In this document: positions 18,559 through 23,019 of the stretch, piece after piece
Numbering within the stretch: position 1 is the stretch's first letter
Layout: each line of letters begins with the position of its first letter
Source: a virus
Direction: 5' to 3' (one strand)
Length of the DNA: 27,693 nt
IMG/VR virus record: IMGVR_UViG_3300043418_000082
Location: 1-27,693 of that record
Notes under the pieces: generated by a model
Seen by the model: only the letters and a program-made list of their open reading frames with translations
The model's database searches: none
Told to the model about the DNA's origin: nothing
Position numbers and translations under genes: made by a program

Positions 18559-20769
18559 TTATTTTATGTTTCTGAATGGGTTTCTTGGCTTACGCATTGT
18601 TGTTGAACTAGCGTTGCCACCTCCAATATGTCTAAAAGGAGATCTCATAGTTAATTTACTCATTTTTTGCGAGTTCTGCAACTTATCGTCCTCGACTTCA
18701 ACACGTTTTGACATACCTCTGTTTGACTCTTGTACCTTAACAAAAGATACTAAAGCACAGAATGTTACCAGTCTATCGACGTTAAGCCCTGGTTGGTAAG
18801 CTAACATCTCTTTTAGAATCATTGGATCTGGTATTCTTTCAACACCAAATGTTACACTGGTAATATCTCCGTTATCATTTACCTCTGAATCAATCTCTTC
18901 TTTTACAAACTCAACACCGTAAGATAACATGTGACTCTTAAAGATAGTACCAGTATTCTTCCAACCATACTCTTGGAATACAGATTTGTTTGCACCAATA
19001 TCTTTCAAGAATAGTATCATGTCTTTTGGTACTAGATACTTTTGCTTCCTCTTACTGATCATGTGCTGGATAAAGTGCGAGATATTATTCTCAACAATAG
19101 TCCATGCATTATAGTACTCAATAAGCAACTCTAATCTTTCGTGTGTTTTGTTTATATCATCAAAACGTCCACACCAACTAGCAACAATAGTTCCTGGTTC
19201 TACATAGTTTGACATTGAACCAGATTGATCAATCTTTGATATCTCAACGGAGTTCTTGTAGATGATAATAGAACACAATGAGTCAGATGTTGTTGTCTTT
19301 CCCTCACCAACGGGGTCAATAGAGCCATAGTAAGTACCCCATGATGCATTCTTCATTGGTCTTTCCCAAATAGAAACAACTGCTTCTTTATCTTCAGTCT
19401 TCTTTGATATTGGAAACTCCATGATTGGAAGCTTTCTTGATTCTTTTGCTTCTACCTTACCCTCAGCATTTCTGAACAAATCAACATACTCAACAGGATA
19501 TTCCTTATCTGCAATACGTTGTAACTGTTTGGTAATCAAGTGAGTAGGGAACTTTGCTTCTTTTCTTGTTGCAAAAGCCTCCTCAATATTTCTTGGAGAC
19601 TGTGATACTTCAAGCTGATAAGCCTCTGGTTCTAGTTCTCTCTTTGCTTTTTCAAAACGTTTTTCAAGAGCATCAAGAGCTTCTTTAACTAATGAGTTAC
19701 CATAAGCATCAATGTATGGTGGCATTGACCACTGCTCTGGAATAAACAAACCCGTCTTACCAATAGTCCCATCTTTATCTATAAGATTAGATGATACTGC
19801 ATAAAACTCATTTGCTTCTGGATTTAATACATAGTTCTTTAGAGGTTCGCACTGATCCAAGTCACCGACTGATCCTGCTGCAATAAACTGACCTGTTGTA
19901 ATATCACCAGAACGTAAGGCAGGACGCATGAAACCATATGTATCGTCCATCTTTGGGGCAATACCAGCTTCTTCATGAAAGAAGTAAACAACTGGACCAC
20001 CGACACCATTTGTTGGGTCTTTCTCAAAAGAGTATGACGTGATTGTTGATTTCAAACCTTTATAAGTATCACGACCATTCTGACGTACTTTAATACGCTG
20101 TTGCCATGCTCCTACCTTATCTGGTTCATTTGGTCTATACCAAGCTGTATGCTCATTAAGAAAGTTTTTGTATTCGTCTAAGAACTTCCATGAACCTTTT
20201 TCGTTTATGTAGTCTTTTAAAGATGCACCAAGTTTTAATACAGCACCAGATTCAAACCAGTACGTATTTATAAACTTACCCATGTGGTAATAAGAGGAGG
20301 CTATCTGACGTTTCTTTAGAATTATAGCATGTCTGTAGTGTAACTCTGCAAGATGTTCATACAAAGCCATGTGATACTGGGCATCTCTGACCTTTGCAAA
20401 ACCAAACTTCTTTTCTTCTTTATCATAGATTGGAAGAAAGTTCAGCCACATGTAGTATTCTCTACATAGATACCAAACAAGATCTCCTGATCTATAGATT
20501 ACACCGTTTCTGCATTTATCTTTTTCTGTATCCCAATAATAAACAAAATCTGCTGACTTAAATGGAGCATCACAGTAATATCCATTATTATTAAAGTTAG
20601 TCGCCTGTTCATTAAAAATATCACTAGTTTCATTGAACTGATACTCACCAGGTTCCTTAAAGACAGAAAGGACAAACTCTACATACTCTTCTTTCGTTGA
20701 GAATATAGTGGTTGTCCAGCTTCCATCTACCCAAGTTGGTACTTCTTTATATAATGCTTGATTACTCAT
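18559..20769 (-). CDS. terL: Terminase large subunit, 736 aa
   Basis: The N-terminal ATPase carries a Walker A-like KKRQIASSYYH (residues 152-162; the usual Gly is Ala), Walker B VVYFFHEEAG (260-269) with the catalytic Glu, and a coupling-motif-like QFIAAGSVGDLDQ (about 294-306). The C-terminal RNase H-like nuclease is marked by GSIDPVGEG (D485), TIVENN (E560) and an aspartate near the end in NVDRLVTF. It cuts and pumps DNA into the procapsid through the portal. The C-terminal tail is basic (MSKLTMRSPFRHIGGGN). It precedes phoH and portal in one operon; no separate small-terminase gene is obvious nearby. The 5' gap to the upstream gene is 5 nt. Confidence 0.9.
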   Translation of the reverse strand: MSNQALYKEVPTWVDGSWTTTIFSTKEEYVEFVLSVFKEPGEYQFNETSDIFNEQATNFNNNGYYCDAPFKSADFVYYWDTEKDKCRNGVIYRSGDLVWYLCREYYMWLNFLPIYDKEEKKFGFAKVRDAQYHMALYEHLAELHYRHAIILKKRQIASSYYHMGKFINTYWFESGAVLKLGASLKDYINEKGSWKFLDEYKNFLNEHTAWYRPNEPDKVGAWQQRIKVRQNGRDTYKGLKSTITSYSFEKDPTNGVGGPVVYFFHEEAGIAPKMDDTYGFMRPALRSGDITTGQFIAAGSVGDLDQCEPLKNYVLNPEANEFYAVSSNLIDKDGTIGKTGLFIPEQWSMPPYIDAYGNSLVKEALDALEKRFEKAKRELEPEAYQLEVSQSPRNIEEAFATRKEAKFPTHLITKQLQRIADKEYPVEYVDLFRNAEGKVEAKESRKLPIMEFPISKKTEDKEAVVSIWERPMKNASWGTYYGSIDPVGEGKTTTSDSLCSIIIYKNSVEISKIDQSGSMSNYVEPGTIVASWCGRFDDINKTHERLELLIEYYNAWTIVENNISHFIQHMISKRKQKYLVPKDMILFLKDIGANKSVFQEYGWKNTGTIFKSHMLSYGVEFVKEEIDSEVNDNGDITSVTFGVERIPDPMILKEMLAYQPGLNVDRLVTFCALVSFVKVQESNRGMSKRVEVEDDKLQNSQKMSKLTMRSPFRHIGGGNASSTTMRKPRNPFRNIK

Positions 20770-20774
20770 AGTTA

Positions 20775-20963
20775 TTATTCATCAATACCTAAAGCATCAA
20801 GAAGATCACAAAGTTTACCCATCGTAATAATACGATCATCTTCTTTTGGATCATTGTTCCAATATTCTTGATACACTTCTCTTGGTATTGCATGCCAGAG
20901 TTTTGTATATTGATTATAATGTATCACATAGTTGTGACTGTTAATCTTCTTTAGCATATCCAA
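20775..20963 (-). CDS. Small protein, 62 aa, unknown
   Basis: The start overlaps the ThyX stop by 23 nt; a second Met at codon 3 is also possible. The protein is charged with aromatic residues (YTKLWHAIPREVYQEYWNND), ending in an acidic helix (TMGKLCDLLDALGIDE). No family is recognised. It sits directly upstream of TerL, a place where some phages have a small terminase, but it is too short and lacks a helix-turn-helix to claim this. Confidence 0.55.
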   Translation of the reverse strand: MDMLKKINSHNYVIHYNQYTKLWHAIPREVYQEYWNNDPKEDDRIITMGKLCDLLDALGIDE

Positions 20964-21657
20964 ATGCAGTTAGTGAGTGTTTGAATGGTTCCCAAGGCAA
21001 CTCCTGCACAATGGTTAACATTTGATTAGCAATATCTCTTATCTCAACTTGTGCATGCTCATCGTTTCTAAGCTTCTGAAATAACATAAAGCTTCTAAAG
21101 TTAAACATAACATCAGCAGTAATCTGAGAGTTGTATCCTTTGAAAAATCTTGCTGATTCTTTTGCCCGTTTTCTTCCAAGTACAGGTGTCAAATCTTCTA
21201 AACAGTTGTGATACAAGTAGTTACCAATCTCTGAGTAGTCTTGTAATACACTAGCCCAGCTTGTTCCTTGTTTCCAAGATAACTCTCCGCCTTCATCATT
21301 ACCATCTGAATCCTCTTCATGGATAAACAATGGCTTTGAAAGTTTGATGTCAGTCCAGTCTTCTGGTACAAATATCTTATCTTCTTTTAGTTCTTTGTAT
21401 CGTGCAGATTCCCCATTAACAGCAACACCAATACGGTGTTTAAGAATGTGTATATGTGAGGCAATATCTGATGTAACCAGAAAGTGAAGGGATGATTTTT
21501 CAAACGGTGTATGATGTCCTTCTTTTGCCAGCATATTAAGTAATGCAGGCATTCGATCTTTCTTTTGTTCAAAGTCTCTTGAAGTTGACGTCCAAGCTGA
21601 TAGTGCATGTGTCTGATCGCCTCCATAAAATCCTATAAGTTCAACTGTATTATCCAT
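20941..21657 (-). CDS. thyX: Flavin-dependent thymidylate synthase ThyX, 238 aa
   Basis: Recognised by the ThyX pattern: GHHTPFEKSSLHF (residues 48-60), then the signature region KHRIGVAVNGESARYKE (73-89, corresponding to the RHRx7-8S family motif), and the C-terminal LRNDEHAQVEIRDIANQM segment that binds nucleotide. Length is as expected for the family. The enzyme makes dTMP from dUMP using methylene-tetrahydrofolate and NADPH via FAD, supplying thymidine nucleotides for replication. The first Arg of the motif is Lys here, a variant that may still work. It starts inside the end of the Tad2-like gene (8-nt overlap), so it is co-translated with the anti-defence genes. Confidence 0.9.
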   Translation of the reverse strand: MDNTVELIGFYGGDQTHALSAWTSTSRDFEQKKDRMPALLNMLAKEGHHTPFEKSSLHFLVTSDIASHIHILKHRIGVAVNGESARYKELKEDKIFVPEDWTDIKLSKPLFIHEEDSDGNDEGGELSWKQGTSWASVLQDYSEIGNYLYHNCLEDLTPVLGRKRAKESARFFKGYNSQITADVMFNFRSFMLFQKLRNDEHAQVEIRDIANQMLTIVQELPWEPFKHSLTAFGYAKED

Positions 21658-21901
21658 TTGTTACTGGGGTCCAATCGTCTGCTAACATATCTGTCTGTGA
21701 TGCCAACCAAGGTACTCTTGATTTTGGTGCATCTGGATTTGTTGTGTCCAAACCTGTTGTATCAATGTAGATATACGGTGATGTCATCTTTGACTCCGCA
21801 GTTGGTAGTTGTAACTTAATAAAGATACCTTTACCGTTCCATCCAGCTCTAGCCATCTTGTGACCAAACTTTAGTTGCTCTAACGCTTCTCCAAATGTCA
21901 T
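21650..21901 (-). CDS. tad2: DUF2829 / Tad2-like anti-Thoeris sponge, 83 aa
   Basis: The sequence has the DUF2829 pattern: FGEALEQLKFGHKMARAGWN (residues 3-22) and GKGIFIKL, SPYIYIDTTG, and the C-terminal VPWLASQTDMLADDW (63-77). DUF2829 includes Tad2, shown in published work to bind and sequester the Thoeris signal 1''-3' gcADPR, and some relatives bind further cyclic nucleotides; the family works as a tetramer. Length matches. The gene lies between the Acb2/Tad1-like gene and thyX, with a leader TATAAACTAACAACATT. Family assignment is strong; actual binding partners of this member cannot be read from sequence. Confidence 0.8.
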   Translation of the reverse strand: MTFGEALEQLKFGHKMARAGWNGKGIFIKLQLPTAESKMTSPYIYIDTTGLDTTNPDAPKSRVPWLASQTDMLADDWTPVTNG

Positions 21902-21918
21902 AATGTTGTTAGTTTATA

Positions 21919-22203
21919 TTAGTACTGTAAAGTTAAAGTTTTAACTACCATCATCTGTGCAGCAAGAATATCCATTAGTGCACGTTTAGTCAAATCTTCT
22001 TTTAAAGAAGTTAATGTACCGTGGCGGTAGCTATCTAACTGTGAATCATAGATTAAGTCTGCTAACTCAGCGCAAAGGGCTTTTGCTTTTGCAACTTTAT
22101 CATCACCTGATGGATTAAATGTTTTACCAACTAGTTTTTCTCCATGAGTTAATTCTGTTGGATGAGGAGTTGTCTCAAGATCGGTGTAAGTTTCTTGTGT
22201 CAT
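21919..22203 (-). CDS. Putative Acb2/Tad1-hairpin-like signal sponge, 94 aa
   Basis: A short helical protein: after an acidic N-terminus comes GEKLVGKTFNPSGDDKVAK (residues 21-39), a helix AKALCAELADLIYDS (40-54), and a C-terminal helix ending ALMDILAAQMMVVKTLTL. The pattern F-x-P-x-x-D-x-V then two long helices resembles the Acb2/Tad1 hairpin domain, whose members bind cyclic oligonucleotide or gcADPR signals of CBASS and Thoeris. The resemblance is from memory and is moderate. The frame is open further upstream through the tRNA-Cys gene, but the start at 22203 is preceded by TATAAACCAAACCAAA, which decides it. Next gene downstream is Tad2-like, which strengthens an anti-defence role. Confidence 0.6.
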   Translation of the reverse strand: MTQETYTDLETTPHPTELTHGEKLVGKTFNPSGDDKVAKAKALCAELADLIYDSQLDSYRHGTLTSLKEDLTKRALMDILAAQMMVVKTLTLQY

Positions 22204-22219
22204 TTTGGTTTGGTTTATA
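22204..22219 (-). promoter_or_regulatory. A/C-rich leader deciding the start at 22203
   Basis: The minus strand reads TATAAACCAAACCAAA directly before ATG, the same element as at 10397-10418. It separates the tRNA region from the anti-defence genes and could carry its own transcription start. Confidence 0.5.
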
Positions 22220-22259
22220 CTATCATCAAAACTTGCATTTTTTACAAGTTTTGCTACTG

Positions 22260-22334
22260 AGTAGGAAGAGGGATTCGAACCCCCGGTTTTACTGTTTTGC
22301 AAACAGGTACGTTGGACCACTCCGCCATTCCTAC
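22260..22334 (-). tRNA. tRNA-Cys (GCA)
   Basis: On the minus strand the 7-bp acceptor GTAGGAA/TTCCTAC, a D-arm (GCG/CGT), an anticodon arm CTGT-TTGCAAA-ACAG with anticodon GCA, and a T-arm GGGGG-TTCGAAT-CCCTC fold as a standard 75-nt tRNA with T as the discriminator base. No CCA is encoded. It reads codon UGC (and UGU). It lies 40 nt upstream of the Acb2/Tad1-like gene. Confidence 0.85.
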
Positions 22335-22339
22335 TTATG

Positions 22340-22482
22340 CTGTAGTGGAAGGATTCGAACCTCCAAGTGGACTTTAGCTATAGGACATTGCGCGCTTTGT
22401 GGTCAACCCTTTATCCTACGTTTATCAGTAACTCCACACCCCCGAGACAGGAGGGCACGTCTGCCAGTTTCATCACACTACA
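22340..22482 (-). tRNA. Unusual tRNA with a 74-nt variable region (anticodon tentatively GTC)
   Basis: On the minus strand the acceptor TGTAGTG/CACTACA (7 bp), a class-II-like D-arm (ATG, loop AAACTGGCAGA, CGT), an anticodon arm CCCTC-CTGTCTC-GGGGG and a T-arm GGAGG-TTCGAAT-CCTTC are all present. Between the anticodon stem and T-arm are 74 nt instead of the usual 4-20. This insert can pair GTGGAGTT with AAGTCCAC (one G-G mismatch) as an elongated variable stem, and TAGGA with TCCTA further in. The loop puts GTC (Asp) at positions 34-36, which is unexpected in a Leu/Ser-like body, so identity is unsure. It could be a tRNA with an intron or insertion, or a degenerate tRNA. Confidence 0.55.
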
Positions 22483-22506
22483 GTGTACTCTGTAAATATA
22501 CTAAGT

Positions 22507-23019
22507 TTAAGAATCATATGCAAGGTTTTGCCCACCGCGTACAGAACTCTGTTGCTCTTCTTGTAAATCTCTATAAGTTGATTTAAAGCTTTGTCTGATC
22601 TGGTCAAACTTTGCAGCTGCGTTTATTACAGCAGTAATGTTACCATCTCTACCATGCTCAATATCTGTTACCTCCATGTATTTTGCCAATCGATCAAGCA
22701 TTGACTTCATGCCCATATAGGCTCTAAAAGTTGGCGTTTGATACATTTGCTCACATCTTTTCTTTGCATGCAGTATCATCTCATCATCAAGAGAAAAATC
22801 AGCTCCTACCTCTTTTAAAATCATTGCTTCTTTATCCTTTTCTGGAACATCAAAGAACGGATTAAGATCTGGATTAGGACACGTTGAGTAAAATAAATAA
22901 GTATAGATCTTTATTGCTTCACCTCCATACTCATCCATAATATTCTTCAAGAACTCCAGTGTATAACAGTGCTCAGAAGGAATCACTTTACCATTCTGTA
23001 CATCAAATAATCTTACCAT
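22507..23019 (-). CDS. Conserved crAss-like structural-module protein, 170 aa
   Basis: Recognisable stretches are MVRLFDVQNGKVIPSEHCYT, FYSTCPNPDLNPFFDVPEKD, RAYMGMKSMLDRLAKYMEV and GRDGNITAVINAAAKFDQIR. I recall this family as widely conserved beside the IHF-like and nuclease genes in crAss-like phages, without a known function. The protein is mostly helical, soluble, with no membrane segment and no catalytic motif. The start shares one base position with the end of the nuclease gene, so it belongs to the same operon. The two tRNA genes follow 24 nt after its stop. Confidence 0.7.
   Translation of the reverse strand: MVRLFDVQNGKVIPSEHCYTLEFLKNIMDEYGGEAIKIYTYLFYSTCPNPDLNPFFDVPEKDKEAMILKEVGADFSLDDEMILHAKKRCEQMYQTPTFRAYMGMKSMLDRLAKYMEVTDIEHGRDGNITAVINAAAKFDQIRQSFKSTYRDLQEEQQSSVRGGQNLAYDS

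Follow-up and report, generated by a model that had tools for sequence, protein, structure and literature searches.

Gene order at the locus

The window, i.e. the whole stretch of DNA that was analysed, is a viral record of 27.7 kb (27,693 nt). Its packaging proteins (terminase, portal and capsid) match phage packaging families. The nearest relatives of the terminase are in crAss-like and Flavobacterium phages, at ~25% identity, and a relative of crAss001_48 is present as a small gene in a sister locus; thus the host of the window phage is likely to belong to the Bacteroidota.

The minus strand displays the order p5, tRNA-like element, tRNA-Cys, acb2-like gene, tad2, thyX, p4 and terL; the genes, tRNA elements and direct repeats of the window below are on this strand. 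The p5 open reading frame (22507..23019) encodes a 170 aa protein conserved in the lineage (alignment A4; n = 595 relatives in viral contigs) and forms the left edge of a cargo slot, whose right edge is terL (18559..20769), the crAss-like terminase large subunit (phrog_6681). The acb2-like gene (21919..22203) encodes the 94 aa protein P0002, assigned by homology via intermediate sequences and by a structural model, and tad2 (21650..21901) encodes the 83 aa protein P0001. Both start with ATG, and they are 17 nt apart. The two open reading frames are present where the original prediction had placed them, and the motifs quoted from them, ARAGWNGKG, VPWLASQTDMLADDW and FNPSGDDKV, are all found. 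The neighbouring thyX (20941..21657), also predicted, matches PF02511 (E-value = 5.1e-26). Its 8-nt overlap with the end of tad2 is compatible with co-transcription of these two genes, but thyX is a neighbour of the cassette and is itself no counter-defence gene. A scan for sigma-70 promoters and terminators gave no more matches than chance expects.

The acb2-like gene is flanked by a short direct repeat, with TATAAACCAA immediately upstream (22210..22219) and its partner TATAAACTAA between acb2 and tad2 (21909..21918). A perfect inverted repeat, AAAACTTG-N9-CAAGTTTT, is located upstream of acb2 at 22228-22252; it occurs once in the window, is retained in relatives, and is a possible regulatory or processing hairpin.

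The pair had been described as lying beside tRNA genes. One standard tRNA, tRNA-Cys(gca) (22259..22334), does adjoin it, but the second element (about 22345-22485) is non-standard and is missed by both ARAGORN and Rfam. This tRNA-like RNA (22345-22485) is 141-156 nt long. Its acceptor and T arms are those of a tRNA and its D arm is Leu-like; it also has a giant variable arm and a possible anticodon loop with GUC. A 33-nt core is found exactly in 23 viral contigs, and there are 12 compensatory base pairs across 14 distinct copies. The p5-acb2 interval of three loci (L007, L008 and L009) carries tRNA arrays (Thr, Tyr, Cys, Phe, Ile, Met) and further non-standard tRNA-like pieces, and L009 displays an apparent tmRNA-like gene, recognized by eye.

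The Tad2 protein

P0001 matches the PF11195 profile with 83.3 bits and an E-value of 1.8e-23, above the curated cut-off of 25. By profile, its predicted assignment to the DUF2829/Tad2 family is certain. Sequence matches in the PDB are to the solved SPO1, Myroides, Hgm and Spt Tad2 proteins, the best being HgmTad2/AcrIIA7. The AlphaFold2 model of the monomer (pLDDT 88) has 24 PDB matches with E-values of 0.001 or less, all of them Tad2/AcrIIA7, and matches SPO1 Tad2 with bound gcADPR at an E-value of about 1e-5. In alignments to the solved Tad2 chains, the motifs GWNGK and W..SQTD.LA.DW are kept in P0001; among 43 relatives, residues W21, G23, W65, S68, D71, D76 and W77 are invariant. Both tad2 and the acb2-like gene are under purifying selection, with dN/dS of about 0.03-0.27 relative to their relatives.

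The stretch between the two motifs is ~33 residues in P0001 and ~55 in HgmTad2. As judged from the alignments, P0001 is a short-form Tad2, without the long insertion of HgmTad2 and SptTad2. The cyclic-dinucleotide site of Tad2 resides in that insertion (reviewed in PMC12043709), and the short SPO1 Tad2 does not bind 3′3′-cGAMP (PMC11722364). For these reasons the ligand of P0001 is expected to be a signal of the ADP-ribose type. The SQTD motif of SPO1, Hgm and Spt Tad2 is present in P0001, where ModTad2, a His-ADPR binder, has SVSD; this hints, by inference, at a cyclic ADPR ligand.

Divergent Tad2 genes of 70 aa adjoin acb2 in two other loci (L025:4072-4281 and L028:2581-2790). These have lost GWNGK and SQTD and still match PF11195, and may be either decayed or retuned to another ligand.

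The Acb2-like protein

Searches with P0002 in Pfam (even at an E-value of 10), PHROGs, NCBIfam and the PDB sequences yielded nothing meaningful. P0002 itself falls short of the curated cut-off of PF24729, the Acb2/Tad1 hairpin family, which is matched by 12 of 60 members of the P0002 family (window plus viral contigs). Homologues were found by tblastn in phages Aaphi23 (E-value = 5e-6), DSL-LC05 (1e-4), Pmp11 and PS3, and these align across the full conserved length of P0002. Several relatives do pass PF24729: Pmp11 (7.5e-11), DSL-LC05 (3.5e-10) and L083 (4.6e-13), compared with 3.2e-18 for PaP2 Acb2 (8h2j) and 5.5e-20 for T4 Vs.4 (7uq2) as positive controls. P0002 is thus linked to the Acb2 family only through full-length intermediate sequences. 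A profile-profile comparison of the P0002 and PaP2 branches was weak (E-value = 0.09); with intermediates added it improved to 8e-4, over a short local match only.

The P0002 model (pLDDT 88.6) has helices at positions 20-25, 35-60 and 66-91, i.e. a short helix followed by two long antiparallel helices. This is the layout described for Acb2, a short helix and a two-helix hairpin (PMC12043709). In structural alignment (VIA) the top row is T4 Vs.4 with cGAMP (Z = 7.5), and Acb2 gives Z = 6.5. This match is compatible with an Acb2-like fold and is not decisive, since two-helix hairpins are common and unrelated helical hairpins reach Z = 7.4. A Foldseek search with the model found nothing significant. 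The model shows no structure for residues 1-19 and contains no predicted strand; membership in Tad1 was rejected on the absence of the N-terminal beta-sheet domain from the model.

Two positions of P0002 are nearly or fully invariant: K41 in 60 of 60 relatives and F29 in 59 of 60. The superfamily alignment places K41 on K26 of PaP2 Acb2, and the structural alignment begins in the same register, while F29 corresponds to Y11 in the Pfam register alone. Y11 and K26 are presumably the aromatic and lysine residues that contact the ligand; no contact residues of Acb2 were found published in the open-licence literature. The P0002 branch also has its own invariant signature, GEKLVG.TFNPS and AQM..VK..T, which is absent from the PaP2 branch.

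From its sequence relatives and model, P0002 is classed as a divergent Acb2-like protein and not as a certified member of PF24729. The core of the original prediction, a Tad2 and a hairpin sponge side by side, is supported, with P0002 joining the Acb2 family via intermediates.

A cargo slot with turnover of acb2

The lineage was sampled by way of p5, independently of either sponge gene, and gave 63 dereplicated clusters. The distance between p5 and terL ranges from zero to about 2.9 kb, and the slot can also carry SNase, GroES-like, glycosyltransferase and other genes. Both sponges are present in 3 clusters, acb2 alone in 1, tad2 alone in 4 and neither in 55, so that the two share the slot more often than chance predicts (Fisher p 0.003 for these 63 clusters).

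The 62 aa open reading frame p4 (20775..20963), immediately before terL, had been put forward as a counter-defence candidate by association. It was rejected: 46 surveyed loci with no sponge of either kind in the interval have a p4 homologue before terL, and p4 is therefore a core gene of the lineage.

Two loci (L101 and L140), which share ~93% identity with this region of the window, lack acb2 alone. Their junction retains a single copy of the repeat that flanks acb2 in the window, TATAAACYAA, with one mismatch in L140. In a third locus (L103) the initial acb2 codons (MTQEVYTDLEMTP) persist, joined in frame to tad2, and this scar reads as a loss of acb2. Because acb2 is missing between short repeats in close relatives, and given the L103 scar, the sequences indicate that acb2 is an accessory unit, gained or lost whole. 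Such a status is expected of a counter-defence gene. Acb2 sets off the Panoptes defence (PMC12657218), and it may be speculated that loss of acb2 is favoured where Acb2-type sponges do so.

Recurrent pairing and fusion

Relatives of P0002 were gathered from viral contigs, nearly all of which are metagenome contigs, and the resulting clusters are not phylogenetically independent. In the sample collected with acb2 only (49 sequence clusters), a Tad2 or RyR-domain gene is present in the fetched DNA of 10 clusters. Nine of these 10 co-occurrences are immediately adjacent or fused: five Tad2 and three RyR genes are adjacent, and one RyR domain is fused. About 80% of the clusters have neither Tad2 nor RyR nearby, and the commonest neighbour family of acb2 is a 95 aa protein (8 neighbours in the 49 clusters); given this, Tad2 and RyR are not claimed to be the main partners of acb2. 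With loci from other queries added (57 clusters), there are 8 adjacent Tad2 genes, 4 adjacent RyR genes, 3 RyR-Acb2 fusions and 2 cases in which the genes are near.

The RyR partners pass PF02026. The recently described RyDEP proteins of phages act on cyclic ADP-ribose signals by cleavage or sequestration, with H75, W78, H100 and D117 as ligand/catalytic residues (PMC13232231, preprint). Each of the 8 RyR partners compared has the equivalent residues with unchanged spacing (H, W+3, H+25, D+42).

Fusions of an RyR (RyDEP-like) domain with Acb2 are found as single open reading frames in L048:281-871, L339:3971-4597 and L345:878-1516. Although known from assemblies, the fusion is seen in three distinct sequences, so that an assembly artefact appears unlikely. 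In the phage collection the L048 fusion is not covered to 80% or more by any record, and searches of phage sequences found no cultured phage with an RyR-Acb2 fusion or a tad2-acb2 pair.

Both gene orders occur among the paired loci, and some of the genes overlap by a few bases. A canonical, PaP2-type Acb2 directly follows an upstream tad2 in L190/L191, where the two overlap, and in L238/L248; this order is the reverse of that in the window. Given these arrangements and the RyR partners, the pairing has arisen in at least two Acb2 branches, and its antagonists of ADP-ribose signals, Tad2 and RyR, are unrelated to each other. A binomial estimate for adjacency is 4e-6; it treats the clusters as independent and sets the chance rate at 20%, both of them rough assumptions, and is given no weight here. 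The pairing of Acb2 with antagonists of ADP-ribose signals is not accidental.

It is conceivable, but unlikely, that tad2 and acb2 are each functional and came together by chance in a permissive p5-terL slot, without cooperation. The slot is variable and admits SNase, GroES-like and glycosyltransferase genes, and many acb2 genes are solitary or located elsewhere. Against this, pairing is also found outside the slot (L328 and the canonical Acb2 loci); it takes either order, can include start/stop overlaps, involves RyR as a second antagonist fold and extends to fusions, in addition to the co-occurrence above chance (Fisher p 0.003).

Another explanation, which is distinctly improbable, is that P0002 has the hairpin fold and a different job, for instance as a small helical virion or packaging protein, or as a sponge for a signal other than those of CBASS. 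The lack of a direct Pfam match would agree with this, as would the branch signature that is missing from the PaP2 branch and the position of some P0002 relatives between lysis and terminase genes or among internal virion genes. However, adjacency to antagonists of ADP-ribose signals and three fusions with them would not be expected of such a protein, canonical Acb2 is paired with tad2 as well, and acb2 comes and goes between phages that are 93% identical, which is atypical of a virion or packaging gene.

That P0001 is a Cas9 inhibitor, instead of or besides a sponge for ADP-ribose signals, is very improbable: AcrIIA7 activity is recorded for the Tad2 family and HgmTad2/AcrIIA7 is the top PDB sequence match of P0001, but P0001 is short like the SPO1 and Myroides Tad2 proteins, which were solved with gcADPR and His-ADPR, and the RyR partners in sister loci come from a cADPR-targeting family (PMC13232231), suggesting a shared ADP-ribose theme.

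Proposed function

The tad2 and acb2-like genes probably form a small cassette with which a crAss-like phage counters immune signalling, two sponges against two immunities. The gene families, model folds, purifying selection, recurrent adjacency and fusion, and turnover are observed; that P0001 and P0002 bind ligands, which ones these are and in what oligomeric state the proteins act is predicted. During infection P0001 would most likely sequester ADP-ribose-derived signals made by Thoeris TIR proteins, and P0002 would most likely oligomerise and sequester the cyclic di- and trinucleotides of CBASS and related systems, both as inferred from their families. With both messengers captured, neither effector class would be activated and two signalling immunities would be blunted.

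Overlapping ligand ranges had been predicted for the two proteins. Complementary ranges are likelier, because P0001 is the short form of Tad2, without the insertion that holds the cyclic-dinucleotide site, and SPO1 Tad2 does not bind 3′3′-cGAMP.

A wider proposal is offered tentatively, at somewhat less than an even chance. Acb2-type sponges and antagonists of ADP-ribose signals may have evolved as a class of two-signal counter-immunity modules, translationally coupled or fused (RyR-Acb2, Tad2 plus Acb2). Such modules would neutralise the messengers of TIR proteins and of cGAS-like enzymes at once, perhaps within a single hetero-oligomer or bifunctional protein, and the window would hold the two-gene form. 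The recurrence of the pairing, at times as a fused protein, suggests that phages assemble two-signal anti-immunity modules.

To our knowledge, the sponge families have so far been studied singly. If sponges for cyclic oligonucleotides are indeed repeatedly coupled or fused to antagonists of ADP-ribose signals, this would show that phages handle both messenger classes as one problem. The pairing supplies a guilt-by-association rule for new counter-signalling proteins, and the natural RyR-Acb2 fusions are compact candidate bifunctional inhibitors, open to direct testing. Near-identical phages with and without acb2 form natural pairs in which the conditions that make a sponge useful or harmful can be compared; harm is conceivable because Acb2 sets off Panoptes.

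Comparison with known systems

P0001 has the family, fold and motifs of Tad2 (PF11195; SPO1 Tad2, ModTad2, HgmTad2/AcrIIA7) and is as short as SPO1 Tad2. It differs in being encoded next to an Acb2-like gene by a crAss-like phage, with an ADP-ribose ligand predicted.

P0002 resembles Acb2 (PF24729; PaP2 p26, T4 Vs.4) in size and helix layout, in a lysine in the first long helix and in a Met/basic pattern in the second, with homology via intermediates. Unlike Acb2, it is below Pfam detection, has its own N-terminal signature (GEKLVG.TFNPS and AQM..VK..T) and has other loop lengths. The hairpin family PF24729 is common to Tad1 and P0002, whereas the N-terminal beta-sheet domain is present in Tad1 only, and P0002 is therefore called Acb2-like.

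RyDEP is a phage RyR-domain glycosidase or cADPR sponge. In sister loci the position of Tad2 next to the Acb2-like domain is taken by an RyR protein, which may also be fused to that domain; the window has no RyR gene. The main text of the RyDEP preprint (PMC13232231) mentions neither Acb2 nor Tad2.

No coupled or fused pair is described in the passages of PMC11722364 consulted, and an earlier report of the pairing beyond the open-licence literature is possible. According to that source, SPO1 carries Tad2 and Acb4, and T4 carries Acb1 and Acb2. On this account SPO1 and T4 are like the window phage in having complementary counter-signalling proteins in one phage, in other combinations of families.
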